From Thamnidium elegans (taxonomy: Eukaryota; Mucoromycota; Mucoromycetes; Mucorales; Mucoraceae), in contig JAIXMG010000003.1 in NCBI GenBank assembly GCA_025201345.1, positions 1,426,001-1,490,000 on the forward strand: 64,000 nucleotides of DNA, written 5' to 3'. Position 1 is the first letter of the stretch; every line of letters begins with the position of its first letter. The position numbers were made by a program, and so were the translations under genes. The notes beneath the pieces were generated by a model, which was not told the origin of the DNA, did not search any database, and was given only the letters and a program-made list of their open reading frames with translations. This document shows positions 36,771 through 58,554 of this stretch, piece by piece.

Positions 36771-39411
36771 ATGACAACAATTACAAATACCACCAATACC
36801 CTAGTTTTTCAAAAAGAAAATGAAAATGCCGTAAAACAATTTATCATGGATACTCTGGATAGAAACGAATTACCTAATGGATCTCTGCAAGATCTTTTAA
36901 AAGACGGTATTTTATTATGCGAGTAAGAATTTATATGATGACAGGTGTTAAGCGTATAACTAATCTTTATTTTGTGTAGATTAATTAAAAACTTTTCAAC
37001 AGAACCTATTATTAAAAATGAAAGACGTACAAAATTTGCATATGTAAGTATATAAACGTTTTTTTTTATATAGTGTATATTTAATGGTTTATTTCTTTTT
37101 TAGCAAGATAATATTGGTCAATTCTTAAGAGTAGCAGAAACTGTAAGTATATTATATTGTATTATATAAAAAAAAGAGAAACTAATTCGCTTTTTATTAG
37201 CTTCATATACCCCAGTCCGATTTATTTCAAACAGTAGACCTACTTGAAGGCAAAAGAATGCAGAGTGTCATCTCTTGCTTATTAGCAATCCAAAGAATTA
37301 TGTGTGAGCGCAAAATAATCACCAAGAACAGCGCGACAACCAAAAAAAAAAATGGCAGTACCCGAAACTTATTATTGCTAGTAGATGAATCTTCTACTCA
37401 ACCACAATCAATCTATAAAAAAAAGAGTAGCCATCACTTGTTACCCAAAAAAACCACACCTTCCGAAATCTTGGACTGGTCTAAAAAATTAACTGGTAAC
37501 CCTCATCGACGTATAGAACCTGTAGTTGAAAAAAAGAAATGTATTTCAGTTAAAAAGCCGCCACAAAAGCAGGGCTATGTTAAACTTCAAGTGCATATGA
37601 TTACAAGTAATAACAATCAATTGGCTGTGAGTGAGCCAGCGAGACGTAGACTCTCTTCTGATATATTCATAAAAGAAACAAAAACTAAAAAATTACCGCT
37701 ACCCGTTTTACCAAAGTCTTCTAAATCTACTCCTATCGTCATGGCGCCTAAACTAAATACAGAGTCCAAAAGTAAAACGGTTACAGCGGATCATATGAAA
37801 AAATCTAGTCAAGAGTATAATCAACTGGAATATACCAATAGAAAAACGTCCTTAAAAAAAATGGGAGCCTGTGCTATTAAGGTTGAATGTGATGATGGTT
37901 CTTTAGCTGTTTACGTAAGTAAAAAAAAAAAAAATGTTTATGCCGTACACAAGAAACTAAATATTTACTTTTTTTTTTATTAAAAAAAAAGGCTTTGGGC
38001 AAAAGTATCGGTAAAGGTCAATTTGGTGAGGTGTTTGGTGGTTTGAATATGGATACGGGAGAATATGTAGCTATTAAAAGAATCAGAAGAAATCAAATGG
38101 ATTGTGATGATATGGTAAAGAAGAAAAAAAAATTACTTTTATTAGCAACTATCTAATATACATGTATAGAATGAAGTAAGTGTGCTTAAGCATTTAAATA
38201 GTGAACATATCGTAAGATATGTAGGGTTTTCCAAAGACAAAGAGTTTTTAAACATTATTTTAGAGTAATGTATTACTTTAACTGTATTTTCTTCATTTTA
38301 AAAAAAAAAACTGACTCATTTCTTTTTTACATATAGATACGTTGAAATGGGTTCACTACATAATAACATCAAGGCATTTGGTAAATTCCCAGAGAAATTA
38401 GCAGCTTCTTATACATTCAAGATCTTATCTGGTCTTCATTACTTACACTCTAAAGATGTTATTCACTGTGACTTGAAGGCAGCTAATATTTTAACGACCA
38501 AGACAGGAAGTTTAAAGTTAACTGACTTTGGCGTCTCACTTAGTTTAAAAATGAAGGACGATGAAAACACGGGCGAACCAGCGGGAACGCCAAACTGGAT
38601 GGCACCCGAAGTCATAAAATTCGCTGGTGCTTCTGCCAAATCAGATATTTGGTCCTTAGGCTGTACCATTGTTGAAATGTTGACTGGTAAACCGCCTTAT
38701 GCTGGAATACCGTCCTTCACTGCTCTCTATCGTATCGTAGAAGACGATGAACCACCTATTCCCAAAAATATCGTGTTATCTGATGAGGCAAGAGAGTTTT
38801 TAATATGCTGCTTTAAAAAGAACCCGGCAGATAGGCCCAGTGCGTACGATTTAATGCAATCGAAATGGATGGCTCCTTATTTCAACCAATTGTTGTCTCC
38901 ACCGGGTACAGTTAAAAAGAGTAAAAGTGAAACTTGTTTGGAGCTATCAGATAGCGAAACTTTATCGGATACTCAGGACTATAGAGCTACGCATACTTTT
39001 GTAGACTATCAAACTAAGCAGCAAGGTGAACGTTGTTATAGTTGTCATATGCAAATGAAGAAAGTTTGGGTTAGAAGTTGTCAAGGTAAAGAAAAAATAA
39101 AAAAAAGTACCGAAATAAGATACTAATGTCCTTTTTAGATTGTCAGTTAAAGTTTCATCCACATTGTACAAACAAAGCACCAATGTGTCCCAATATGCCA
39201 ACAGTAAATAATAGCAGGCCTTCTTCAAGTTGTGATAGTCTGGAAAAGAAATTTAAGTCAAAGATTACACCTCTAGGCCCCTTAAATGGTGTTACAGGTG
39301 ATTTAAAGAAAATATACTTGCCTGCGATTCAACACAAGTATCAGTACAAGACTGAAGCGTACGCTCAGGTCAATAAGGGTATTAGAAAGTCCAATACTTC
39401 TGTCATGACCT

Positions 39412-39413
<2 letters not shown>
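36771..39413 (+). CDS. Protein kinase with CH, STE-type kinase and C1 domains
   Basis: Exons 36771-36922, 36980-37043, 37104-37142, 37201-37914, 37992-38114, 38170-38264, 38337-39085 and 39139-39413 give about 736 residues. A calponin-homology domain (about 15-115, ending with transgelin-like SDLFQTVDLLEGKRM) is followed by a Lys/Ser-rich linker and a Ser/Thr kinase domain (about 324-600). Kinase landmarks are GKGQFG (330-335), Lys352, Glu366, HCDLKAAN (439-446; HCD in place of HRD), DFG (459-461) and GTPNWMAPE. The kinase most resembles the Cdc7/Cdc15/SepH type of STE kinases. A C1 domain follows, with ligands His616, Cys630, Cys633, Cys645, Cys648, His653, Cys656 and Cys663. A role in actin-linked septation or polarity signalling is plausible but inferred. 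The 3' half from about 38469 is duplicated twice downstream. Confidence 0.85.
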
Positions 39414-39705: not shown

Positions 39706-42700
39706 TTACTCTTTTTTGCGAACGATCGTAGTATCTGACATATTTTCAGTAGACGTATCAATGATTAAATCACTAACTTCAATAACAGGTATGTCACTGA
39801 CCTCAGCAATATTTACATCTTCAACTTCGGCAGTAGTTACACCATCGACTTTGACAGTAGTTACACCTTCAACTTCGGCAGTAATTACCCCATCAACTTC
39901 AGCAGAAGTTAACTCACCACCTTCAGCAGAAGCTAACTCGTCGTCTTCAGCAGAAGTTAACTCGACCTCTTCAGCAGAAGTTAACTCACCATCTTCATAA
40001 ATGTTTAAATCACCAACTTCAAAAGGTTGTCTATCGTCGTAAATATTTGCTACTAAGAAATCATCTCCTGAACGGTATGTAGGGGCATTCTTTCCGAATT
40101 CTGAATTAATTTTAGCTTCAAACTTAGCTTCATTGTTATCAAAGATAAGGCGAATATCGAAGTGAAGACGAGGGTTTTTACCAGTTGTCATTGGATTGTC
40201 TTCGTCACGTTTCAAATAAAGCTCAAATCGATGAATCTTTCGGAAGTTACAGTTGTCTGTTTTGAGTCCTTCAGTAGGTAAGTTATCTACATCGGAAGAG
40301 TAAATAGCTACAAAATAAAAAATATACATTTAGTTATATGAAGATTACAGGAAGTGGAAATTTACCTACTAGCATAAACAATACAATCTTCGTGCGAATA
40401 AAACGTTTTAAAGATGCCCTCATATTCATCTTTTTCTAAAATTTTATCACCTCGGCGAATGAGATATGTCAAATCATCATCTTTACGATCAAAAGCGCTT
40501 GTATACAAGGAAGGGTCATGAGGAGATTGATAAAACAAGTCAATCTTTTTATCACTAGCATAACAATACTCAGATTCCACGCCGTAAATTTTCATTTTCA
40601 TTCTCGTTTCCAGTTTGTAACTTCTTATTCCTTCTATTTTATATTTCGCTGCAGGTACAAGATCTTTAGGAGCATATGCACGGACATTAACGGCATAGGA
40701 GGTTCTGGCAACCCGTTCAGTAAAATCTTCAGGATGGTTACCATAAATTGCAGCGCCTAAAAGTGCTTCCTTTCCGTTGTGCTTTGAAGGGTTGATAAAG
40801 TCAGTTTTAATATTCATGACTTCAGAAATGATGCTAATGACAGTACGTTCCAAATATTCATAGTTTGGTGTACTAGTTTCTAATAAGACACCAGATAGAA
40901 CGATCCTGTCAAAACTAAAACACTGCATCATATCGGCTTGTAATACAAACCGATTTATTTCGAATGCAAGATCTTTAACTGCGGGTAGGAATACGTATTC
41001 CAAAAGATCGTATACTTTAATTGAAACAATACAACATCCGGCATCAGTAATAGGAATATCTTGAACTTTGGTATAGCTATAAAAGTCTAACGTTGTCTAT
41101 TTTAGGAGAGAAAGACTAAGTATTCCAGCTATGTAGAGTATAACTAGTGACCAACCTTTATGTAGTTGAGGAAACCTCTTCTGAGTTCGGTATAGTAGCC
41201 AGGAGTATAGACATCATGGTTTTCAGAGCACATAATACAAGTATTTTTTGACACATATCTATTTAAATAAAAAGTAATTCTACTGGTAAAGTCAAAATCA
41301 AAAGTAGCTGATCTAACACTTCTCACATTTCTGGAAAGTCCAGTATCTTGGTCATCTGTAGAATCTATATAAGTACCATTGATTTTAGTATATTCCATTA
41401 ATGATAAACTACATATATCGTGGTACATATTGATCAGTAGTACATGATTACTGTAAGCAGGTATGTTTGAAAAGTATTCTTTTTCTATATACATGGCAGC
41501 TGCAGTATTGCGACCAATTAATAAAAGACGCTCAGCAGGATCTTCTTCTGAGATAATACCCGCTAATTGAGCAATATAGCGCATTTCAGACTTGTTGTCG
41601 AAGAATTGATAACAATTTTCCATAGTAATGACATATCTGTACTTATCCGTGTCCGCAAGTCCAGCAAGTAGTTTGTGGACGTGATCAAGTACAAGCCTTA
41701 GATATTCACAAAAATAGCGTCTCAGATCGGCCTTAACACTAGACATTAATTTACTGGGAGTTATGAGTTTTTTGTGGTCAGGGTCGATAGGCTGTTTAAC
41801 TAGGGCACCCCAAGTTGTTTTGCCATTAACCGTTTCTTTTGCTGTGGGTATCATGGAATTGTTTCCTTGTAGACCAGGCCTATAATTAATTAGCATTAAT
41901 TTAAATTTAGTATACTAACAAATAAGGGAAATGCAATACCAATCTGTGATTTCAGTCATCTCGTCAGATTCGTTTTCCAAATCTCTGTAGGAACATGATG
42001 TTGTACCATATCCAATATCTGTATGATTATATAAAAAAAAAAAGTTAGCATCATTCTCAGGTATTATATATTAAAAATCGACTCTTTACCTAAGCAGATT
42101 AATGTACTATATTTATCGATAGAAGCGTATCCAAACTTTCGGTCAGCAATATCAGTTTGAGGTTTTCTTCTACTTTGATCGATACCGTAAATCATGGCAC
42201 CTCTCATTGCAGCAGAATCACCACGATCATCGGTGATTAAAGTGCCTATTCTATACTGACTATTGGGAAATGAAGTACCCTTTATGTAGAAGGCTCTAAG
42301 TATCCTCTTTTGTAAGTAAGGGGAGCTTCCGAAACCTCCAACCAAATAGGTACGTTCTATGTTACTATTGGCTTTTTTTATCTGTTTATCTATAAGGCTC
42401 AATATACGCTTTGTAACATCTTCAAATACTTCTGTCCGCATGATGCTATACGGAATCGTCAATTTACAAACACCACGATCACGTATACACTCAACACCAG
42501 CAGGTAAATACATTTTCAATGTAGGTAAAATAACAGCACCTTCCAATACCAGAATGGTAGCTATAGAAAAGAGTATATAAATTAATGACCACTGTGTAAT
42601 TCCATTATATAAAAAAAAAGCTTACGGTCTCCGAAATTTGATTTATGCAAATATTTAAAATCTTCTGCTTTACAAATAATACATTGTCCATCATTATGAT

Positions 42701-43935
42701 TACCTTCATCAATTGGTCCTTTGGAAATGAAACCCGCATGTGTCTTCAAATGCTCGGCATGGTTACATTTAGGGAATTTAAACTCTCTCGATCGGTTACC
42801 GAATACTGGCTACAATTAAAGAATCAGAGCTGCTTTTTTACTAAAGTCATAAATTTTTACCTTGATTTCACTAATAAATTTGTCAATAATAGGAGAAAAT
42901 AATTTATCGCGTTCCATTTTTTCTTCGTTATTTTTAACTGGCACACCATTGTAAAAAAAACGTGTAAGGAGCTCACGCATTTTTTCGTCCACAAATGTAG
43001 AACCACATTTTTCACCACTGTCAGACGTTAACTGACAACGACGAAAAGTATCAGAAGGATCCCCAGTAACAGTCTTTACGGACTCAAAAGTTGCAAGATT
43101 TGCTGTCCCACCACCTGCATCACAAACAATATATTTGTCGCCTGGTTTCATATCCGGTAAATCAGTTTTTTTTTGCTCACAATGTAAGGTAGCAGCATAT
43201 GACTCACTGATAATTGATAAACGACTTCCGTGGTCTTCATCAGTAATTAAACCAGACTCTTTAGCCACAGTACGCATAATAGCTCTTTGTAGGTCGTTCC
43301 ACTGAGCAGGCACAGTAATAACAAAACGAATATTCTCCTTTTCAACAGAAATTTGACCAGTACCACCAATATTTCTTTGAATTGTACTAACAGTATGGTT
43401 AAAGATTTCTCTGAAATAATCAATAGTTGCTCTCATATTGTCATGTTCTGTTTTTTTGGCGTTGTTTGTTTTATAAATGTCATCTTTTTGTGGAATAGAA
43501 GAAGGGAGTTCCAACTTGAATTTTTCTTTAACAATTTGACCGGGCTTTAAGTTGCCATTTTCAATATGATTTCGAGCAGCTTTACCCCAGTGCAATAAAT
43601 GGAAGTTTCTGTCGTAAATGTTGATTGAAGGTGTTTTACTTTCAACTTTTGACTGTTCTGGCCTAAAAGAAAAGAAAAGAAAAGATTTGTAAGTGGTACT
43701 TGTTTAGTCTGGTTTTATAAGTAAATTTACCAACTTGTAACTGCCATAATATCAGGATATTCTGTATCTCTCAGTTCTGTAGTAGTTAGCCCTGCAGTAA
43801 CAGAATAACATGTTCCCGAAAATGTTGTACCGAAATCTACAGAATAACAAGCATTACTTTTCTTTCTTTGTATATGATCTTTTCTCTCTTACCAATAGAG
43901 ATAAGGATTCCATACTTGTGGAATCTGAAAGCCAT
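39706..43935 (-). CDS. Two-domain Hsp70-like (HSPA12-type) ATPase, copy 1
   Basis: Exons in transcript order: 43893-43935, 43731-43836, 42861-43662, 42626-42809, 42090-42560, 41940-42018, 41156-41879, 40370-41096 and 39706-40307, giving about 1245 residues. Domain 1 (1 to about 535) has phosphate-1 DFGTTFSG (15-22), TVPAQWND, phosphate-2 DAGGGT (231-236) and the adenosine motif VGGFG (452-456), as in HSPA12A/B. Intron 5 joins in phase to a second domain starting DIGYGTTSCSY (536), with VITMENCYQ, NTAAAMY and a phosphate-2 region replaced by LLINMYHDICSLSL (about 708-721); it is probably a pseudo-ATPase. The tail carries 8-residue acidic repeats. One extra T in the final exon ends the protein at RKKE, about 15 residues earlier than copies 2 and 3. 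The separate-gene alternative is unlikely because all junctions are in phase. Function unknown. Confidence 0.8.
39790..39990. repeat. Coding 24-bp minisatellite in Hsp70-like copy 1
   Basis: The minus-strand tail encodes about eight degenerate 8-residue units with the pattern E/G-L/V-T-S/T-A-E-x-x (for example ELTSAEEV, GVITAEVE, GVTTAEVE). Copies 2 and 3 differ in number and order of units at the same place (46510-46670 and 53200-53390). Confidence 0.75.
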
Positions 43936-44783: not shown

Positions 44784-45196
44784 TTACTCGACTTTACCAT
44801 CTTCCACTTGCTTACCAGGTTTTCTATCCTTGATATAATCGGATTTATGTCTCCTACAAAACTCCTTATTCTTTTTTTCACCTTTGGAATAAGTGTATTG
44901 GATCAAATCATATAGATATTTATAATAGAACATCAAATTATCATATCGGCCATCATATACCTGACCTGGTTTTAATTCGTAAGCCTGTGAATATTCAACA
45001 TATAAATAATAAATGGCTTCAATCGTCGAAAGGTAATTCACGCTGATATCTTGAAATCTCCAAAAACTGGTTAATCTTGGCTCGATTGTTACTTTTTGAA
45101 CCTTGTTTAGTAAAGGTGTGCCTCGTACGATTTTATTGGCTTGTCTCCAGGTACCGTCTATCACAATCATGTGGTCAAATGAATCTCGAGGGATGT
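44784..45196 (-). pseudogene. Truncated DTW-domain gene, unit 1
   Basis: A copy of the last exon of the intact DTW gene at 58142-59088, cut at the repeat junction. From Met at 45170 it can encode 128 residues starting MIVIDGTWRQANK, including the DGTW motif but lacking the upstream Cys cluster and the first two exons. A TAG lies in frame just beyond the junction. The 128-residue protein sequence is identical in all three units. Confidence 0.85.
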
Positions 45197-46140
45197 GGCT
45201 TGAAGGCAGCTAATATTTTAGCGACCAAGACAGAAAGTTTAAAGTTAACTGACTTTGGCGTCTCACTTAGTTTAAAAATGAAGGACGATGAAAACACGGG
45301 CGAACCAGCGGGAACGCCAAACTGGATGGCACCCGAAGTCATAAAATTCGCTGGTGCTTCTGCCAAATCAGATATTTGGTCCTTAGGCTGTACCATTGTT
45401 GAAATGTTGACTGGTAAACTGCCTTATGCTGGAATACCGTCCTTCACTGCTCTCTATTGTATCGTAGAAGACGATGAACCTCCTATTCCCAAAAACATCG
45501 TGTTATCTGATGAGGCAAGAGAGTTTTTAATATGCTGCTTTAAAAAGAACCCGGCAGATAGGCCCAGTGCGTACGATTTAATGCAATCGAAATGGATGGC
45601 TCCTTATTTCAACCAATTGTTGTCTCCACCGGGTACAGTTAAAAAGAGTAAAAGCGAAACTTGTTTGGAGCTATCAGATAGCGAGGCTTTATCGGATACT
45701 CAGGACTATAGAGCTACGCATACTTTTGTAGACTATCAAACTAAGCAGCAAGGTGAACGTTGTTATAGTTGTCATATGCAAATGAAGAAAGTTTGGGTTA
45801 GAAGTTGTCAAGGTAAAGAAAAAATAAAAAAAAGTACCAAAATAAGATACTAATGTCCTTTTTAGATTGTCAGTTAAAGTTTCATCCACATTGTACAAAC
45901 AAAGCACCAATGTGTCCCAATATGCCAGCAGTAAATAATAGCAGGTCTTCTTCAAGTTGTGATAGTCTGGAAAAGAAGTTTAAGCCAAAGATTACACCTC
46001 TAGGCCCCTTAAATGGTGTTACAGGTGATTTAAAGAAAATATACTTGCCTGCGATTCAACACAAGTATCAGTACAAGACTGAAGCGTACGCTCAGGTCAA
46101 TAAGGGTATTAGAAAGTCCAACACTTCTGTCATGACCTAA
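45179..46140 (+). pseudogene. Truncated CH-kinase copy, unit 2
   Basis: A 5'-truncated duplicate of the kinase gene beginning inside the catalytic loop. A chimeric start MNLEGCG, read from antisense DTW sequence, runs in frame into LKAANIL. With the conserved intron (45813-45865) it could encode about 302 residues holding the DFG-to-C-lobe part and the C1 domain. The N lobe, the ATP-binding Lys and the catalytic Asp are gone (the HCD Asp codon GAC is GGC here). The frame is otherwise open, so it may still be expressed as a kinase-dead C1 protein. Confidence 0.8.
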
Positions 46141-46363: not shown

Positions 46364-49300
46364 TTAAGTTTCCCCCAAAAATTTATTAAAATAGTAAGAG
46401 AGACGGTTTTTACTCTTTTTGCGAACGATCGTAGTATCTGACATATTTTCAGTAGACGTATCAATGATTAAATCACTAACTTCAATAATAGGTATGTCAC
46501 TGATCTCAGAAATATTTACATCTTCAGCTTCGGGAGTAGTTACACTATCGACTTCGGCAGTAGCTACACCATCGACGTCGGCAGTAATTACGCCACCAAC
46601 TTCAGCAGAAGTTAACTCGCTATCTTCAGCAGAAGTTAACTCGACCTCTTCAGCAGAAGTTAACTCATCATCTTCATAAATGTTTAAATCACCAACTTCA
46701 AAAGGTTGTCTATCGTCGTAAATATTTGCTATTAAGAAATCATCTCTTGAATGGTATGTAGGGGCATTCTTTCCGAATTTTGAATTAATTTTAGCTTCAA
46801 ACTTAGCTTCATTGTTACCAAAGATAAGGCGAATATCGAAGTGAAGACGAGGGTTTTCACCAGTTGTCATTGGATTGTTTTCGTCACGTTTCAAATAAAG
46901 CTCAAATTGATGAATCTTTCGGAAGTTACAGTTGTCTGTTTTGAGTCCTTCAGTAGGTAAGTTATCTACGTAGGAAGAGTAAATAGCTACAAAATAAAAT
47001 ATACATTTAGTTATGTGAAGATTACAGGATATGGAAATTTACCTACTAGCATAAACAATACAATCTTCGTGCGAATAAAACGTTTTAAAGATACCCTCGT
47101 ATTCATCTCTTTCTAAAATTCTATCACCTCGGCGAATGAGATATGTCAAATCATCATCTTTACGATCAAAAGCGCTTGTATACAAGGAAGGGTCATGAGG
47201 AGATTGATAAAACAAGTCAACCTTTTTATCACTAACAAAACAATACTCAGATTCCATGCCGTAAATTTTCATTTTCATTTCCGTTTCCAATTCGTAACTT
47301 CTTATTCTTTCTATTTTCTTTTTCGCTGCAAGTACAAGATCTTTAGGAGCATATGCACGAACATTAACGGCATAGGAGATTCTGGCAACCCGTTCAGTAA
47401 AGTCTTCAGGATGGTTACCATAAATTGCAGCGCCTAAAAGTGCTTCCTTTCCATTGTGCTTTGAAGGGTTGATAAAGTCAGTTTTAATATTCATGACTTC
47501 AGAAATGATGTTAATGACAGTACGCTCCAAATATTCATAGTTTGGTGTACTAGTTTCTAATAAGACACCAGATAGAACGATCCTGTCAAAACTAAAACAC
47601 TGCATCATATCGGCTTGTAATACAAACCGATTTATTTCGAATGCAAGATCTTTAACTGCGGGTAGGAATACGTATTCCAAAAGATCGTATACTTTAATTG
47701 AAACAATACAACATCCGGCATCAGTAATAGGAATATCTTGAACTTTGGTATAGCTATAAAAGTCTAACGTTGTCTATTTTAGGAGAGAAAGACTAAGTAT
47801 TCCAGTTATGTAGAGTATAGCTAGTGACAAACCTTTATGTAGTTGAGGAAACCTCTTTTGAGTTCGGTATAGTAGCTAGGAGTATAGACATCATGGTTTT
47901 CAGAGCACATAATACAGGTATTTTCTGACACATATCTATTTAAATAAAAAGTAATTCTACTGGTAAAGTCAAAATCAAAAGTAGCTGATCTAACACTCCT
48001 CACATTTCTAGAAAGTCCAGTATCTTGTTCATCTGTAGAATATATATCAGTACCACTGATTTTAGTATATTCCATTAATGATAAACTACATATATCGTGG
48101 TACATATTGATCAGTAGTACATGATTACTGTAAGCAGATGTGTTTGAAAAGTATTCTTTTTCTATATACATGGCAGCTGCAGTATTGCGACCAATTAATA
48201 AAAGACGCTCAGCAGGATCTTCTTCTGAGATAATACCCGCTAATTGAGCAATATAGCGCATTTCAGACTTGTTGTCGAAGAATTGATAACAGTTTTCCAT
48301 GGTAATGACATATCTGTACTTATCCGTGTCCGCAAGTCCAGCAAGTAGTTTGTGAACGTGATCAAGTACAAGCCTTAGATATTCACAAAAATAGCGTCTC
48401 AGATCGGCCTTAGCACTAGACATTAATTTACTGGGCGTTATGAGTTTTTTGTGGTCAGGGTCGATAGACTGTTTAACTAGGGCACCCCAAGTTGTTTCGC
48501 CATTAACCGTTTCTTTTGCTGTGGGTATCATGGAATTGTTTCCTTGTAGACCAGGCCTATAATTAATTAGCATTAATTTAAATTTAGTATACTAACAAAT
48601 AAGGGAAATGCAATACCAATCTGTGATTTCAGTCATCTCGTCAGATTCGTTTTCCAAATCTCTGTAGGAACATGATGTTGTACCATATCCAATATCTGTA
48701 TGATTATATAAAAAAAAAAAGTTAGCATCATTCTCAGGTATTATATATTAAAAATCGACTCTTTACCTAAGCAGATTAATGTATTGTATTTATCGATAGA
48801 AGCGTATCCAAACTTTCGGTCAGCAATATCAGTTTGAGGTTTTCTTCTACTTTGATCGATACCGTACATCATGGCACCTCTCATTGTAGCAGAACTGCCT
48901 TTATCATCGGTGATTAAAGTGCCTATTCTATATTGACTATCGGGAAACGTAGTACCGCTTATATAGAAGGCACTAAGTATCCTCTTTTGCAAGTAGGGGG
49001 AGCATCCGAAACCCCCAACCAAATAGGTACGTTCTATGTTACTATTGGCTTTTTTTATCTGTCCACCTATAAGGTTCAATGTACTTTTTGTAACACCTTC
49101 AAATACTTCTGTCCGCATGATGCTATACGGAATCGTCAATTTACAAACACCACGATCACGCATACACGTAACACTAGCAGGTAAATAGAATTTCAATTTA
49201 GGTACAGTAATAGCATCTTTCAATACCAGAATGATAGCTATAGAAAAGAGTATATAAATTAATGACCACTGTGTAATTCCATTGTATAAAAAAAAAAGCT

Positions 49301-50614
49301 TACCGTCTCCGAAATTTGATTTATGCAAATATTTAAAATCTTCTGCTTTACAAACAATACATTGTCCATCATTATATTGACCTTCATCAATTGGTCTTTT
49401 GGAAATGGGACCCGTATGTGTCTTCAAATGCTCGGCATGGTTACATTTAGGGAATTTAAACTCTTTCGATCGGTTACCGAATACTGGCTACAATTAAAGA
49501 ATCAGAGCTGCTTTTTTACTAAAGTCATAAATTTTTACCTTGATCTCATTACTAAATTTTTCAATAACAGGAGAAAATAATTTATCGCGTTCCATTTTTT
49601 CTTCGTTATTTTTAACTGGCACACCATTGTAAAAAAAACGTGTAAGGAGCTCACGCATTTTTTCGTCCACAAATGTAGAACCACATCTTTCATCACTGAC
49701 AGCCGTTAATTGACAACGACGAAAACTATCAGAAGGATCCCCGTCGACAGTTTTTACAGACTCAAAAGTTGTAAGACCTAACGTAACACCACCTGCATCA
49801 CAAATAATATATTTGTCCCCTGGCTCTATATTTAATAACTCTGTTTTTTTTTGCTCATAATATAAGGTAGCAGCAGAAGGTTTGTTAATAATCAATAAAC
49901 GATCCTCGTGGTCTTCATCAGTAATTAAACCAGACTCTTTAGCCACATTACGCATAATAGCTCTTTGTACGTCGTTCCACTGAGCAGGCACAGTAATAAC
50001 AAAACGAATATTCTCCTTTTCAACAGAAATTTGACTAACACCACCAATATTTCTTTGAATTGTACTTACAGTATGGTCAAATATTTCTCTGAAATAATCA
50101 ATAGTTGCCCTCATATTTCTATGTTCTGTTTTTTTGGCGTTGTTTGTTTTATAACTGTCATCTTTTTGTGGAATAGAAGAAGGAAGTTCCAACTTGAATC
50201 TTTCTTTAACAATTTGACCAGGCTTTAAGTTGCCATTTTCAATATGATTTCGAGCAGCTCCACCCCAGTGCAATAAATGGAAGTTTCTATCGTAAATACT
50301 GATCGAAGGCGTTTTGTATTCAAATTTTGACTGTCCTGGCCTAAAAGAAAGGAAAAGAAAACGGTTAGTAAGTGGTACTTGTTTAGTCTGGTTTTATAAG
50401 TAAATTTACCAACTTGTAATTACCGTAATATCAGGATATTCTGTACCTCTCAGTTTTGTATTAGATAGTTCTGCAGTAACAGAATAACATGCCCCTGAAA
50501 ACGTTGTACCGAAATCTATAGAATAACAGGCGTTACTTTTCTTTCTTTGTATATGATCTTTTCTCTCTTACCAATAGAGATAAGGATTCCATACTTGTGG
50601 AATCTGAAAGCCAT
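46364..50614 (-). CDS. Two-domain Hsp70-like (HSPA12-type) ATPase, copy 2
   Basis: Exons in transcript order: 50572-50614, 50410-50515, 49539-50340, 49304-49487, 48767-49237, 48617-48695, 47833-48556, 47047-47773 and 46364-46986, giving about 1252 residues. The exon pattern matches copy 1 exactly in phase and almost exactly in length. Domain 1 keeps DFGTTFSG and VGGFG, but phosphate-2 is DAGGVT instead of DAGGGT, and the conserved Glu before the AA pair is Lys (NKPSAATLYYEQ). The adenosine half of domain 1 (48767-49237) is the most divergent among the three copies (for example LKDAITVPKLKFYLPAS). Domain 2 is close to copy 3. The C terminus runs on to SYYFNKFLGET. Whether it still hydrolyses ATP is uncertain. 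Confidence 0.8.
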
Positions 50615-52833: not shown

Positions 52834-55800
52834 TTCTCTCTCTCTCTCTCTCGCACATATATATATATATTGTAAATAAATAAAAAAGGGGGTTCTTTTA
52901 TTAATTTTTTTTTGAACTTATTCCAAGTTATAGATAGTGCTAAGATCTTTATACTGTTTGATAAGTAAGTTAGACAATAAATTATTGAAAAGTTAACTTA
53001 GAAACATAGTTTCATACGGATAGAAGTTAATCAAATAAAGCAAACGCTACGATTATTTAAGTTTCCCCCAAAAATTTATTAAAATAGTAAGAGAGACGGT
53101 TTTTACTCTTTTTGCGAACGATCGTAGTATCTGACATATTTTCAGTAGACGTATCAATGATTAAATCACTAACTTCAATAATAGGTATGTCACTGATCTC
53201 AGAAATATTTACATCTTCAGCTTCGGGAGTAGTTACACTATCGACTTCGGCAGTAGCTACACTATCGACTTCGACAGCAGTTACACTATCGACGTCGGCA
53301 GCAGTTACACCATCGACTTTGACAGTAGTTACACCTTCAACTTCAGCAGTAATTACGCCATCAACTTCAGCAGAAGTTAACTCGCCATATCTATAAATGT
53401 TTAAATCACCAACTTCAAAAGATTGTCTATCGTCGTAAATATTTGCTACTAAGAAATCATCTCCTGAACGGTATGTAGGGGCATTCTTTCCGAATTCTGA
53501 ATTAATTTTAGCTTCAAACTTAGCTTCATTGTTACCAAAGATAAGGCGAATATCGAAGTGAAGACGAGGGTTTTCACCAGTTGTCATTAGATTGTCTTCG
53601 TCACGTTTCAAATAAAGCTCAAATTGATGAATCTTTCGGAAGTTACAGTTGTCTGTTTTGAGTCCTTCAGTAGGTAAGTTATCTACATCGGAAGAGTAAA
53701 TAGCTACAAAATAAAATATACATTTAGTTATGTGAAGATTACAGGAAGTGGAAATTTACCTACTAGCATAAGCAATACAATCTTCGTGCGCATAAAACTT
53801 TTTAAAGATACCCTCGTATTCATCTCTTTCTAAAATTTTATCACCTCGGCGAATGAGATATGTCAAATCATCATTTTTGCGATCAAAAGCGCTTGTATAC
53901 AAGGAAGGGTCATGAGGAGATTGATAAAACAAGTCAACCTTTTTATCACTAGCATAACAATACTCAGATTCCACGCCGTAAATTTTCATTTTCATTTCCG
54001 TTTCCAATTCGTAACTTCTTATTCTTTCTATTTCCATTTTCGCTTTAGCTTCGAGTTTTTTAGGAGCATATGCACGGACATTAACGGCATAGGAGGTTCT
54101 GGCAACCCTTTCAGTAAAGACTTCAGGATGGTTACCATAAATTGCAGCGCCTAAAAGTGCTTCCTTTCCATTGTGCTTTGAAAGGTTGATAAAGTCAGTT
54201 TTAATATTCATGACTTCAGAAATGATGTTAATGACAGTACGCTCCAAATATTCATAGTTTGGTGTACTAGTTTCTAATAAGACACCAGATAGAACGATCC
54301 TGTCAAAACTAAAACACTGCATCATATCGGCTTGTAATACAAACCGATTTATTTCGAATGCAAGATCTTTAACTGCGGGTAGGAATACGTATTCCAAAAG
54401 ATCGTATACTTTAATTGAAACAATACAACATCCGGCATCAGTAATAGGAATATTTTGAACTTTGGTATAGCTATAAAAGTCTAACGTTGTCTATTTTAGG
54501 AGAGAAAGACTAAGTATTCCAGCTATGTAGAGTATAACTAGCGACCAACCTTTATGTAGTTGAGGAAACCTCTTTTGAGTTCGGTATAGTAGCTAGGAGT
54601 ATAGACATCATGGTTTTCAGAGCACATAATACAGGTATTTTCTGACACATATCTATTTAAATAAAAAGTAATTCTACTGGTAAAGTCAAAATCAAAAGTA
54701 GCTGATCTAACACTCCTCACATTTCTAGAAAGTCCAGTATCTTGTTCATCTGTAGAATATATATCAGTACCACTGATTTTAGTATATTCCATTAATGATA
54801 AACTACATATATCGTGGTACATATTGATCAGTAGTACATGATTACTGTAAGCAGATGTGTTTGAAAAGTATTCTTTTTCTATATACATGGCAGCTGCAGT
54901 ATTGCGACCAATTAATAAAAGACGCTCAGCAGGATCTTCTTCTGAGATAATACCCGCTAATTGAGCAATATAGCGCATTTCAGACTTGTTGTCGAAGAAT
55001 TGATAACAGTTTTCCATGGTAATGACATATCTGTACTTATCCGTGTCCGCAAGTCCAGCAAGTAGTTTGTGAACGTGATCAAGTACAAGCCTTAGATATT
55101 CACAAAAATAGCGTCTCAGATCGGCCTTAACACTAGACATTAATTTACTGGGAGTTATGAGTTTTTTGTGGTCAGGGTCGATAGGCTGTTTAACTAGGGC
55201 GCCCCAAGTTGTTTCGCCATTAACCGTTTCTTTTGCTGTGGGTATCATGGAATTGTTTCCTTGTAGACCAGGCCTATAATTAATTAGCATTAATTTAAAT
55301 TTAGTATACTAACAAATAAGGGAAATGCAATACCAATCCGTGATTTCAGTCATCTCGTCAGATTTGTTTTCCAAATCTCTGTAGGAACATGATGTTGTAC
55401 CATATCCAATATCTGTATGATTATATAAAAAAAAAAGTTAGCATCATTCTCAGGTATTATATATTAAAAATTGACTCTACCTAAGCAGATTAATGTATTA
55501 TATTTATCGGTAGAAGCGTATCCAAACTTTCGGTCAGCAATATCAGTTTGAGGTTTTCTTCTACTTTGATCGATACCGTAAATCATGGCACCTCTCATTG
55601 CAGCAGAATCACCACGATCATCGGTGATTAAAGCACCAATTCTATACTGACTATTGGGAAATGAAGTACCGTTTATGTAGAAAGCTTTAAGTATCCTCTT
55701 TTGCAAGTAGGGGGAGCATCCGAAACCGCCAACCAAATAGGTACGTTCTATGTTACTATTGGCTTTTTTTATCTGTGTATCTATAAGGCTCAATACACGC

Positions 55801-58554
55801 TTTGTAACATCTTCAAATACTTCTGTCCGCATGATGCTATACGGAATCGTCAATTTACAAACACCATAATCACGTATACACTTAACACCAGCGGGTAAAT
55901 ATATTTTCAATGTAGGTAAAATAACAGCATCTTCCAATACCAGAATGGTAGCTATAGAAAAGAGTATATAAATTAATGACCACTGTGTAATTCCATTATA
56001 TATAAAAAAAAAGCTTACCGTCTCCGAAATTTGATTTATGCATATATTTAAAATCTTCTGCTTTACAAACAATACATTGTCCATCATTACGTTGACCTTC
56101 ATCAATTGGTCCTTTGGAAATGGGACCCGTATGTGTATTCAAATGCTCGGCATGGTTACATTTAGGGAATTTAAACTCTCTCGATCGGTTACCGAATACT
56201 GGCTACAATTAAAGAATCAGAACTGCTTTTTTACTAAAGTCATAAATTTTTACCTTGATCTCATTAATAAATTTTTCAATAACAGGAGAAAATAATTTAT
56301 CGCGTGTCTTTATTTCTTCTCTATCTTCAGCTTCCACACCATTGTAAAAAAAACGTGTGAGGAGATCTCGCATTTTTTCATCTAAAAATGTAGAACCGCA
56401 TCTTTCACTACTACCCGCAGTCAACTGACAGCGATGAAAGGTATTTACCGACTCAAATAATGCAAGATTTATTGTGCTACCACCTGCATCACAAATAATA
56501 TATTTGTCCCTTGGTTCCATATTTGATAACTCTGTTTTTTTTTCCTCATAATGTAAGGTAGCAGCAGAAGATTCGTTGATAATCAATAAACGAGCCTCGT
56601 GGTCTTCATCAGTAATTAGACCAGCTTCTTTAGCTATAGTACGCATAACGGTTCTTTGTATATCGTTCCATTGAACAGGTACAGTAATAACAAAACGAAT
56701 ATCATCCTTTTCAACATAAACAATACTATTATTTTGAATAGTACTGAAAGTATGTTCAAATATTTCTCTAAAATAATCAATAGTTGCTCTCATATTATCA
56801 TGTGCTGTTTTTTTAGCGTTATTTGTTTTATAAACATGACCTTTTTGTGGAATATATAAAGGAAGTTCCAACTTGAATCTTTCTTTAACAATTTGACCGG
56901 GCTTTAAGTTGCCATTTTCAATATGATTTCGAGCAGCTCCACCCCAGTGCAACAAATGGAAGTTTCTATCGTAAATGTTGATTGAAGGTGTTTTGTATTC
57001 TCTTTTTGACTGTTCTGGCCTAAAAAAAAAGAAAATAAAACGGTTAGTAAGTGGTACTTGTTTAGTCTGGTTTTATAAGTAAATTTACCAACTTGTAATT
57101 ACCGTAGTATCAGGGTATTCTGTATCTCTCAGTTCTGTAGTAGATAGCTCTGCAGTAACAGAATAACATGTTCCCGAAAATGTTGTACCGAAATCTACAG
57201 AATAACAAGCATTACTTTTCTTTCTTTGTATATGATCTTTTCTCTCTTACCAATAGAGATAAGGATTCCATACTTGTGGAATCTGAAAGCCATTTTTTCT
57301 TTTTTGACTTAAAAGAAAAAAAAAAGGAAAAGAAAGTGTGTAGACATTTAGATTCTGTAGTTTTTATCTCAGTACCTCATTTGTGTAAGGTATTACAAAA
57401 CCAAGCCAAGCATACGACACGATGCATTGCTGTATTTCCCCCCTCTCAGTTATCAAATGTCCCTCGTCCTTAAACGCCATGAAATCATAATGGTTTAGCC
57501 TGGATGATTGGATTTCAGAATATATTCTTCTTTTTGAAATAAGTTAAATTATTTTACTCACACATTTCGTTGGTGCGAGTGTTACACTAATAGTACATCT
57601 GGCCAGTCCATTTAAACTGCTACTTTTAAGCTTTTTTATACATTGAAACGAGAAACGTATAAACCTCGATTTATTTTACTGATGCTTAGAAGTGCATCCT
57701 GTTTCTTTAAGCATTAAAAACGAAAAAAAAAAATAGCCTATCATTTTGACAAATTAATTAAAAATTCTTTATGATGGTTCGCCAGTAACTAACACCTTTA
57801 TCGATGTTTAAATCAACCCAATATCCAATACGTTCTTCATTATAATATTCAAAGCTTCTTCTATTATGGTACCTTTGGTTATTACAAACTACAATTGACA
57901 GTTACATTTTCCTTTGTAATCCATTCGGTCCATTACCTTGGACTTAAAACAAACTTACATGATTCGAAATTTAAGGTAGAAAAAAGAAGTCTTTTAAATC
58001 ATGCGCCTTAGTGACCGATTATAATTAATAGAACAATGGATTCGGAAGAAACGCTTATTTGGTCCCATTATAGTATAAGGCCACATATATTTATAATATA
58101 CCATTATACCAAAACAAGCTCTCTTTTTTATTTAAACAAATTTACTCGACTTTACCATCTTCCACTTGCTTACCAGGTTTTCTATCCTTGATATAATCGG
58201 ATTTATGTCTCCTACAAAACTCCTTATTCTTTTTTTCACCTTTGGAATAAGTGTATTGGATCAAATCATATAGGTATTTATAATAGAACATCAAATTATC
58301 ATATCGGCCATCATATACCTGACCTGGTTTTAATTCGTAAGCCTGTGAATATTCAACATATAAATAATAAATGGCTTCAATCGTCGAAAGGTAATTCACG
58401 CTGATATCTTGAAATCTCCAAAAACTGGTTAATCTTGGCTCGATTGTTACTTTTTGAACCTTGTTTAGTAAAGGCGTGCCTCGTACGATTTTATTGGCTT
58501 GTCTCCAGGTACCGTCTATCACAATCATGTGGTCAAATGAATCTCGAGGGATGT
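51881..58554. repeat. Tandem repeat unit 3 (about 6.7 kb)
   Basis: Kinase 3' fragment (plus), Hsp70-like copy 3 (minus) and the DTW last exon. Its right edge runs into the intact DTW gene rather than a junction. Homology to the earlier units stops at GAGGGATGT, followed here by CACTTAATTTC. Confidence 0.92.
53057..57293 (-). CDS. Two-domain Hsp70-like (HSPA12-type) ATPase, copy 3
   Basis: Exons in transcript order: 57251-57293, 57089-57194, 56254-57019, 56019-56202, 55481-55951, 55334-55412, 54550-55273, 53764-54490 and 53057-53703, giving about 1248 residues. Exon 3 is 36 nt shorter than in copies 1 and 2, with deletions around the segment before FHRCQLTAGS and at NNSIVYVEKDD, and a different stretch VEAEDREEIKTRD in place of VPVKNNEEKMERD. 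Phosphate-2 reads DAGGST. The adenosine-half exon resembles copy 1, while the domain 2 exon 41156-41879 equivalent resembles copy 2. The C-terminal repeat array combines units like those of copy 1 and copy 2. The donor joining domains 1 and 2 is GTAGAG instead of GTAAAG but remains usable. Confidence 0.8.

Follow-up and report, generated by a model that had tools for sequence, protein, structure and literature searches.

Locus and gene structure

The 64,000-nucleotide (nt) stretch of DNA analyzed here, referred to as the window, is taken from Thamnidium elegans (GCA_025201345.1, contig JAIXMG010000003.1, positions 1,426,001-1,490,000 of the forward strand), a fungus placed in the Mucoraceae, Mucorales by taxonomy look-up. 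It holds a tandem array of three HSPA12-like genes, each of which very probably encodes two Hsp70/actin-fold nucleotide-binding domains (NBD1 and NBD2) in series. All positions below are window positions. According to a repeat listing, the array consists of a ~6.68-kb unit that occurs three times in tandem and contains the HSPA12-like gene together with open reading frames (ORFs) matching a protein kinase and a DTW domain. In the listed repeat families the units are 98-99% identical in the kinase part and 89-96% identical in the HSPA12-like gene outside its repeat tail. The three genes are as follows.

Copy 1: 43935-39706, minus strand, 9 exons, 1245 residues
Copy 2: 46364..50614, minus strand, 9 exons, 1252 residues
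Copy 3: 53057..57293, minus strand, 9 exons, 1248 residues

Copy 1 starts with an ATG at 43935, its stop codon ends at 39706, and its nine exons are separated by eight GT-AG introns; intron sizes in the three copies range from 51 to 71 nt. NBD1 occupies the first ~515 residues, and the remainder of the protein is formed by NBD2 and a C-terminal beta module.

Exon 1: 43893..43935, minus strand, start codon and first beta strand of NBD1 (MAFRFHKYGILISI)
Exon 2: 43731..43836, minus strand, NBD1 phosphate-1 loop DFGTTFSG
Exon 3: 42861..43662, minus strand, NBD1 connect-1 (IISESYAA) and phosphate-2 (DAGGGTANL)
Exon 4: 42626..42809, minus strand, NBD1 insert with CxH...CxxC
Exon 5: 42090..42560, minus strand, LVGGFG adenosine motif, NBD1 end RGAMIYGID, ~20-residue linker and NBD2 strand KYSTLICL
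Junction intron: 42019..42089, minus strand, 71 nt, phase 1, splitting the Asp codon of NBD2 phosphate-1
Exon 6: 41940..42018, minus strand, NBD2 phosphate-1-like DIGYGTTSCSY, ending at a phase-2 Trp-codon intron as in NBD1
Exon 7: 41156..41879, minus strand, NBD2 core with ITMENCY, LIGRNTAA and the degraded phosphate-2 NMYHDICSL
Exon 8: 40370..41096, minus strand, remainder of NBD2 (LSGVL as degraded adenosine motif, LGAAIYG, FTERVARTSYAV), then the beginning of the C-terminal beta module
Exon 9: 39706..40307, minus strand, remaining C-terminal beta module, variable repeat tail and stop

The continuity of the two domains depends on the junction intron. Exon 5 ends at 42090 with ...ATC TGC TTA G and exon 6 resumes at 42018 with AT ATT GGA TAT GGT..., so that splicing restores an Asp codon and yields STLICL-DIGYGTTSCSY in frame; an earlier note on this DNA had claimed that exon 5 ends in phase with a second phosphate-1-like motif, and the codons on either side of the intron bear this out. 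The intron opens with a GTAAAG donor and contains a branch-like TGCTAAC and a T-run before its CAG acceptor; it measures 68 nt in copy 3, and its retention would introduce an in-frame stop in all three copies. The frames of copies 2 and 3 are open throughout and their exon and splice-site places match those of copy 1, in agreement with the further claim that the design is common to the three copies. We are confident that each gene has a single nine-exon frame with the architecture NBD1, short linker, NBD2, C-terminal beta module, and its recurrence in four further intact paralogues and in 26 deposited homologues, 25 of them with the junction in frame, indicates that it is more than chance.

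Distribution of the double-domain proteins

A full-length search returned 26 homologues of 835-1853 residues, ‘hypothetical proteins’ from eight Mucoraceae species (Helicostylum pulchrum 5, T. elegans 4, Mucor flavus 4, M. saturninus 6, M. mucedo 2, Parasitella parasitica 2, M. bainieri 2 and M. circinelloides 1; Thamnidium, Parasitella and Helicostylum were assigned to this family by taxonomy look-ups). By pattern matching, the annotated sequences of 25 of the 26 have the NBD1-NBD2 junction in frame. P0021 falls outside the pattern, P0026 fits but is degenerate beyond the junction, and P0025 breaks off within NBD2. Besides the window protein, the alignment examined comprised 23 of the 26 homologues, with P0001, P0003 and P0013 excluded. 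When the genome (34.1 Mb, 64 contigs) was searched for paralogues, loci L041, L042, L043 and L046 proved to hold intact nine-exon double-domain genes, which brings the number of intact genes to seven. In addition, a transferred model of L045 slips out of frame early in exon 3, L047 is diverged yet double-domain, and L048 is partial.

Given that short introns make fungal gene models error-prone and that some deposited models deviate, the double architecture might be an artefact of assembly or gene prediction. The DNA already contradicts this explanation, which we consider practically negligible: both domains and the junction intron are present at nine loci (the three window copies, L041, L042, L043, L045, L046 and L047), and proteins of the same layout have been deposited from 8 species.

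Two further observations were made in the genome. An isolated fragment of the NBD2 C-terminal module lies between two HSPA12-like genes (L042:5937-6215) and is likely a relic of a lost array member. At L050:2566-5910 and its twin L051, an HSPA12-like NBD is followed by ~600 residues starting KRDLLVGIDIDLFDLTATF in one 1114-residue frame; by eye, the L050 frame may encode a further, very diverged second domain, but hidden Markov model (HMM) search and HHalign did not support this (probability at most 4.1) and Pfam and PDB searches gave nothing.

NBD1 is HSPA12-like, with variable nucleotide-pocket motifs

NBD1 matches a profile of HSPA12 and fungal HSPA12-like ‘actin-like ATPase domain-containing’ proteins with a probability of 100 (E 5.5e-77), and is ~25-27% identical to animal HSPA12A-like proteins across roughly half of its length. 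In copy 1 it contains the HSPA12-like motifs DFGTTxSG, phosphate-2 DAGGGT and GGF (adenosine). The Pfam HSP70 family (PF00012) matches copy 1 NBD1 at 17.3 bits over residues 152-239 only, below the cut-off of 20.6, and it thus does not score as a canonical Hsp70; deposited protein P0010 reaches 21.1 bits, over residues 150-238 only.

The catalytic motifs were surveyed in 29 sequences (22 deposited proteins, the 3 window copies and 4 paralogues), with the roles of the connect-1 and phosphate-2 residues in catalysis taken from Hsc70. The phosphate-2 loop reads DAGGGTVD(L/I), with the complete DAGGGTxD, in 11 of the 28 members readable there, including paralogues L042 and L043, but in 0 of the 3 window copies, where it is altered to DAGGGTANL, DAGGVTLGL and DAGGSTINL in copies 1, 2 and 3, respectively. 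The connect-1 Glu is present in 28 of the 29 sequences, the exception being copy 2, which has Lys. The description of the first domain as ‘active’ in the earlier note is therefore not supported for the window copies, with phosphate-2 altered in all three and copy 2 also without the connect-1 Glu. It is plausible, judging from these motifs, that NBD1 is active in some paralogues.

The NBD1 insert (42626-42809) also displays a CxH...CxxC pattern and NBD2 a CIxC...H pattern, which are possible metal sites; the former is not seen in the Parasitella, M. circinelloides and M. bainieri rows of the family alignment.

NBD2 is a degraded domain with a predicted actin fold

The phosphate-1 motif of the second domain starts with D(I/M)GY in 28/29 sequences. 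The connect-1 Glu is replaced by Arg in 29/29, phosphate-2 reads NMYHDICSL or similar with its Asp lost in 29/29, and the adenosine GG has another residue in place of its second Gly in all 12 rows compared, while an NBD2-specific motif, ITMEN, is conserved in 27/29. In copy 1 the place of phosphate-2 is taken by LLINMYHDICSLSL, as the earlier note had read it.

Pfam and PDB sequence searches with NBD2 of copy 1 alone returned no match, and profile-profile comparison and structure prediction were therefore needed to assign its fold; both, the latter through Foldseek, identify an actin/Hsp70-type fold. The family alignment used for folding contained 22 of the 26 homologues. Since Foldseek mixes the domains when given the full double-domain model (query template-modelling (TM) scores of about 0.2-0.26), NBD2 was folded separately from P0027. 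In several structural rows the NBD2 and C-terminal beta module of this protein align along the NBD and beta substrate-binding domain (SBD-beta) of DnaK, and its predicted secondary structure has no helical lid after the beta module. With the whole-family profile as query, Hsp70 chains in the PDB were matched solely via NBD1 among the matches listed (60 of 107), NCBIfam gave only sub-cut-off DnaK/HscA matches, and no HSPA12 chain was among the structural matches listed, an absence that carries no evidential weight. Some of these results speak against a second actin-fold domain: the Pfam blank, the moderate confidence of the structure models (predicted local distance difference test (pLDDT) values of 72.9 and 71.7), their derivation from relatives of the window protein, and the lack in the modelled P0027 of a short stretch found in the genome's frame.

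Profiles, structure prediction and motif loss together substantiate the earlier note's principal claim of two Hsp70/actin-fold domains in series with a degraded second one, and the models of the relatives did not show a second half of any other fold. Of the HMM checks that it suggested for each half, PF00012 was below cut-off for NBD1 and gave no match for NBD2; profile comparison recognized both halves. Its ‘intramolecular dimer’ is fair as a description of the layout of the chain, an interaction between the halves being conjectural. By the loss of catalytic residues within a conserved, predicted actin fold, NBD2 is a putative pseudo-ATPase.

Alternative gene models

Some deposited models do not conform to a single double-domain frame and count against it. 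The model of P0031 (Helicostylum, 468 residues) runs into the retained junction intron and stops there (LICLGKESIFNIHNCE). P0027 and P0028 take an internal Met in the equivalent of exon 5 (MRGA) as their start, P0032 and P0033 stop shortly past the beginning of NBD2, P0034, P0036 and P0037 (Mucor mucedo, 538-556 residues) are without NBD2, and P0038 (M. bainieri) treats the junction sequence as coding. To the same side belong two features of the search, namely that only the 7990 candidates sharing most words were scored and that the 26 homologues are annotated genome proteins.

Taken at face value, the P0031 stop and the MRGA starts of P0027 and P0028 would indicate two adjacent genes, an NBD1 gene that ends in the junction intron and an NBD2 gene that begins at an internal Met (MRGAM...) or elsewhere, and retention of the intron in copies 1 and 2 would indeed give LICLGKESIFNI followed by a stop. 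However, NBD2 begins 5' of the intron with its first strand (KYNTLICL or similar), which 25/26 homologues retain, and a start at MRGA would bring along ~35 residues of NBD1. Moreover, the first 300 residues of P0027 are those of the L042 model from residue 497, and the L042 DNA has exons 1-5 intact and in frame upstream; P0031 is identical at 299 of its first 300 residues to P0001, which reads through at what looks like the same gene. Two separate genes are therefore improbable.

A different alternative is that both single- and double-domain forms are made, either by retention of the junction intron, as in P0031, or by a splice from the RGA of NBD1 to the LGA of NBD2. In P0034, P0036 and P0037, NBD1 continues in register into the C-terminal part of NBD2, which restores a single-domain layout. 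A candidate splice of this type (AGAG|GT to TTAG|G) is in phase, and its donor is found in 6/7 and its acceptor in 7/7 intact genes. These splice letters are nevertheless expected from the codons that the protein motif needs, the resulting intron would exceed 1 kb as compared to 51-71 nt in the window copies, and the M. mucedo models may reflect recombinant genes or errors of gene prediction. We consider production of both forms unlikely and favor the single double-domain frame.

Phylogeny and selection

A maximum-likelihood tree was built from 12 NBD1 rows, 12 NBD2 rows and 26 presumed single-domain rows; two mollusc HSPA12A-like sequences served as the outgroup, and the tree contained no canonical Hsp70. 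NBD1 and NBD2 form separate single clades (each 100/100) that sit among Mucoromycota HSPA12-like rows. Both clades include the Parasitella/M. circinelloides/M. bainieri group and the groups of Thamnidium and other Mucor species, so that the fusion probably predates their split; by this tree the double architecture is old within the sampled Mucoraceae. The NBD2 stem is long (3.07 changes per column, as compared to 1.14 for NBD1) and branches within NBD2 are short, which suggests one fast change followed by constraint, and the long branches leave its exact placement unsure.

Among 18 divergent paralogue pairs, the ratio of nonsynonymous to synonymous changes (dN/dS) is 0.22-0.49 in NBD1 and 0.18-0.31 in NBD2, with dS >1 in many pairs; at the junction it is 0.09-0.47 in the 17 measurable divergent pairs. 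The uneven dS along the L042-L043 pair, 0.07 in the beta module versus ~1.0 in both NBDs, suggests gene conversion.

Two results are unfavorable to the reading advanced here. A sister relationship of NBD1 and NBD2 is neither supported nor rejected (p-AU, approximately unbiased test, 0.42), so that ‘self-duplication’ and ‘fusion of two paralogues’ both stand. Second, dN/dS among the window copies is 0.46-0.80 in NBD2, 0.25-0.78 at the junction and 1.07-2.22 in the beta module (dS 0.02-0.03), next to 0.52-0.65 in NBD1; at such low dS, selection is not demonstrated for the newest copies. These ratios, the altered NBD1 loops of copies 1-3, the loss of the connect-1 Glu in copy 2, the frame slip of the transferred L045 model and the partial L048 would all fit a decaying family, in which three recent tandem duplicates are on their way to becoming pseudogenes with a relic second domain. 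Against such decay stand the seven genes with intact frames and splice sites, a constraint on NBD2 similar to that on NBD1 between divergent paralogues, and the conservation of NBD2 in 8 species with ITMEN in 27/29 sequences; we give decay little credence.

Introns and the probable origin of the fusion

In NBD1 of copy 1, exon 2 is flanked on its 5' side by a phase-1 intron in the phosphate-1 Asp codon and on its 3' side by a phase-2 intron in the Trp codon of a W-P pair, and NBD2 has both introns at the same places. Six other loci of the genome (L041, L042, L043, L045, L046 and L047) likewise have an intron at the codon of the junction intron. For comparison, 11 pattern-matched HSPA12-like NBD starts outside the double-domain genes were read, a subset of the starts at these loci. 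The Trp-codon intron is present in 11/11, and the Asp-codon intron, with donor and acceptor, in 8/11 (the second genes of L042 and L046, L049, L050, L051, L052, L044 and one L057 gene; it is absent from both L056 genes and L060). It is thus probable that a single ancestral gene already had both introns and that NBD2 was formerly the start of a gene of its own. The pre-junction stretch KYNTLICL corresponds to HKYGIIISI of exon 1.

We consider it likely that the double-domain gene arose by fusion of two tandem HSPA12-like genes. The upstream gene would have lost its C-terminal beta module and stop, and the downstream gene its start codon, with the ancestral first intron of the latter persisting as the junction intron.

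Repeat tails and neighboring genes

The C-terminal tails of the three genes contain 24-nt direct repeats that encode 8-residue units rich in Thr/Ala/Glu/Val (39706-40036, 46392-46739 and 53109-53432), and their arrangement varies among the copies. A protein-kinase gene adjoins the array (37201-39413 and 45047-46140). The ORF at 45047 contains the later part of the kinase domain only, and the tandem duplication therefore seems to have copied a truncated kinase. A fragmentary DTW-domain ORF lies inside the repeated unit (44784-45209, minus strand, E 1.4e-16).

Proposed mechanism

A fused tandem HSPA12-like gene, taken together with its proposed origin and a working mechanism, is probably the best overall explanation of these data. 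The mechanism itself is tentative, and we hold it with less than even confidence: NBD1 may act as a cis regulator of a non-hydrolyzing platform. NBD2 and the beta module would form this platform and bind a partner or client, and NBD1, whose nucleotide pocket varies in quality among paralogues, would shift shape with bound nucleotide and act on NBD2 in cis. Copies with a damaged NBD1 loop may bind nucleotide without hydrolyzing it, or leave it unbound. A wider version, which we rate as falling just short of an even chance, is a family-wide cis heterodimer in which an ATP-binding NBD1 is wired to a pseudo-ATPase NBD2 bearing the sole client/partner module; it would have been fixed before the sampled Mucoraceae diverged, with the arrays tuning NBD1 from hydrolyzing to binding, and, as a bolder addition, with splicing at or near the junction toggling single and double forms.

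Comparison with known systems

The closest relatives are HSPA12 (HSPA12A/HSPA12B) and the fungal HSPA12-like proteins, which have DFGTT(F/Y)SG, DAGGGT and VGGFG-type motifs in common with NBD1. Those relatives found with NBD1 that reach other fungi and animals are mostly ~460-800 residues long, whereas the present proteins join two NBDs, the second of them catalytically degraded. Human HSPA12A, for example, has 675 residues according to PMC2266713. HSPA12-like proteins have one NBD each, and the window proteins have two in frame; as read from its motifs, the architecture is HSPA12-like in parts yet departs from the single-NBD feature. Searches of titles and the starts of abstracts among open-licence PubMed Central papers found no published description of such a double-NBD protein. 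The passages of PMC7928374 examined do not mention hsp70 or chaperones, and PMC8778642 describes Hsp70 expansions in Glomeromycotina and anaerobic chytrids. The architecture would account for the thousand-residue ‘hypothetical proteins’ of Mucor and relatives, for which Pfam is blank in the second half (one copy scanned).

Canonical Hsp70/DnaK proteins resemble these proteins in their actin-fold NBD and in the course of NBD2 and the beta module along DnaK NBD and SBD-beta. They differ in that copy 1 NBD1 scores 17.3 bits against PF00012, as compared to up to 864 bits for the canonical Hsp70s of this genome, and in that P0027 has no predicted helical lid after its beta module. Structural comparison of the full model places chains of Ssz1, from the ribosome-associated complex, among its top rows. 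In Ssz1 and Hsp110:Hsp70, a specialized Hsp70-type NBD functions together with a partner instead of through hydrolysis of its own; these are separate chains, whereas here both NBDs are in one chain. Hsp70-type ATPases are regulated by externally bound partners. A naturally occurring protein in which a working-type NBD is fused to a dead one would provide a one-chain system for how one actin-fold domain controls another. Mammalian hexokinase I likewise consists of tandem actin-fold halves, one catalytic and one regulatory, in which the N-terminal half lost activity. It is a sugar kinase outside the Hsp70 superfamily, and the degraded half here is the C-terminal one; if the present reading is true, the Hsp70 superfamily took the same tandem-duplication route as the hexokinases.

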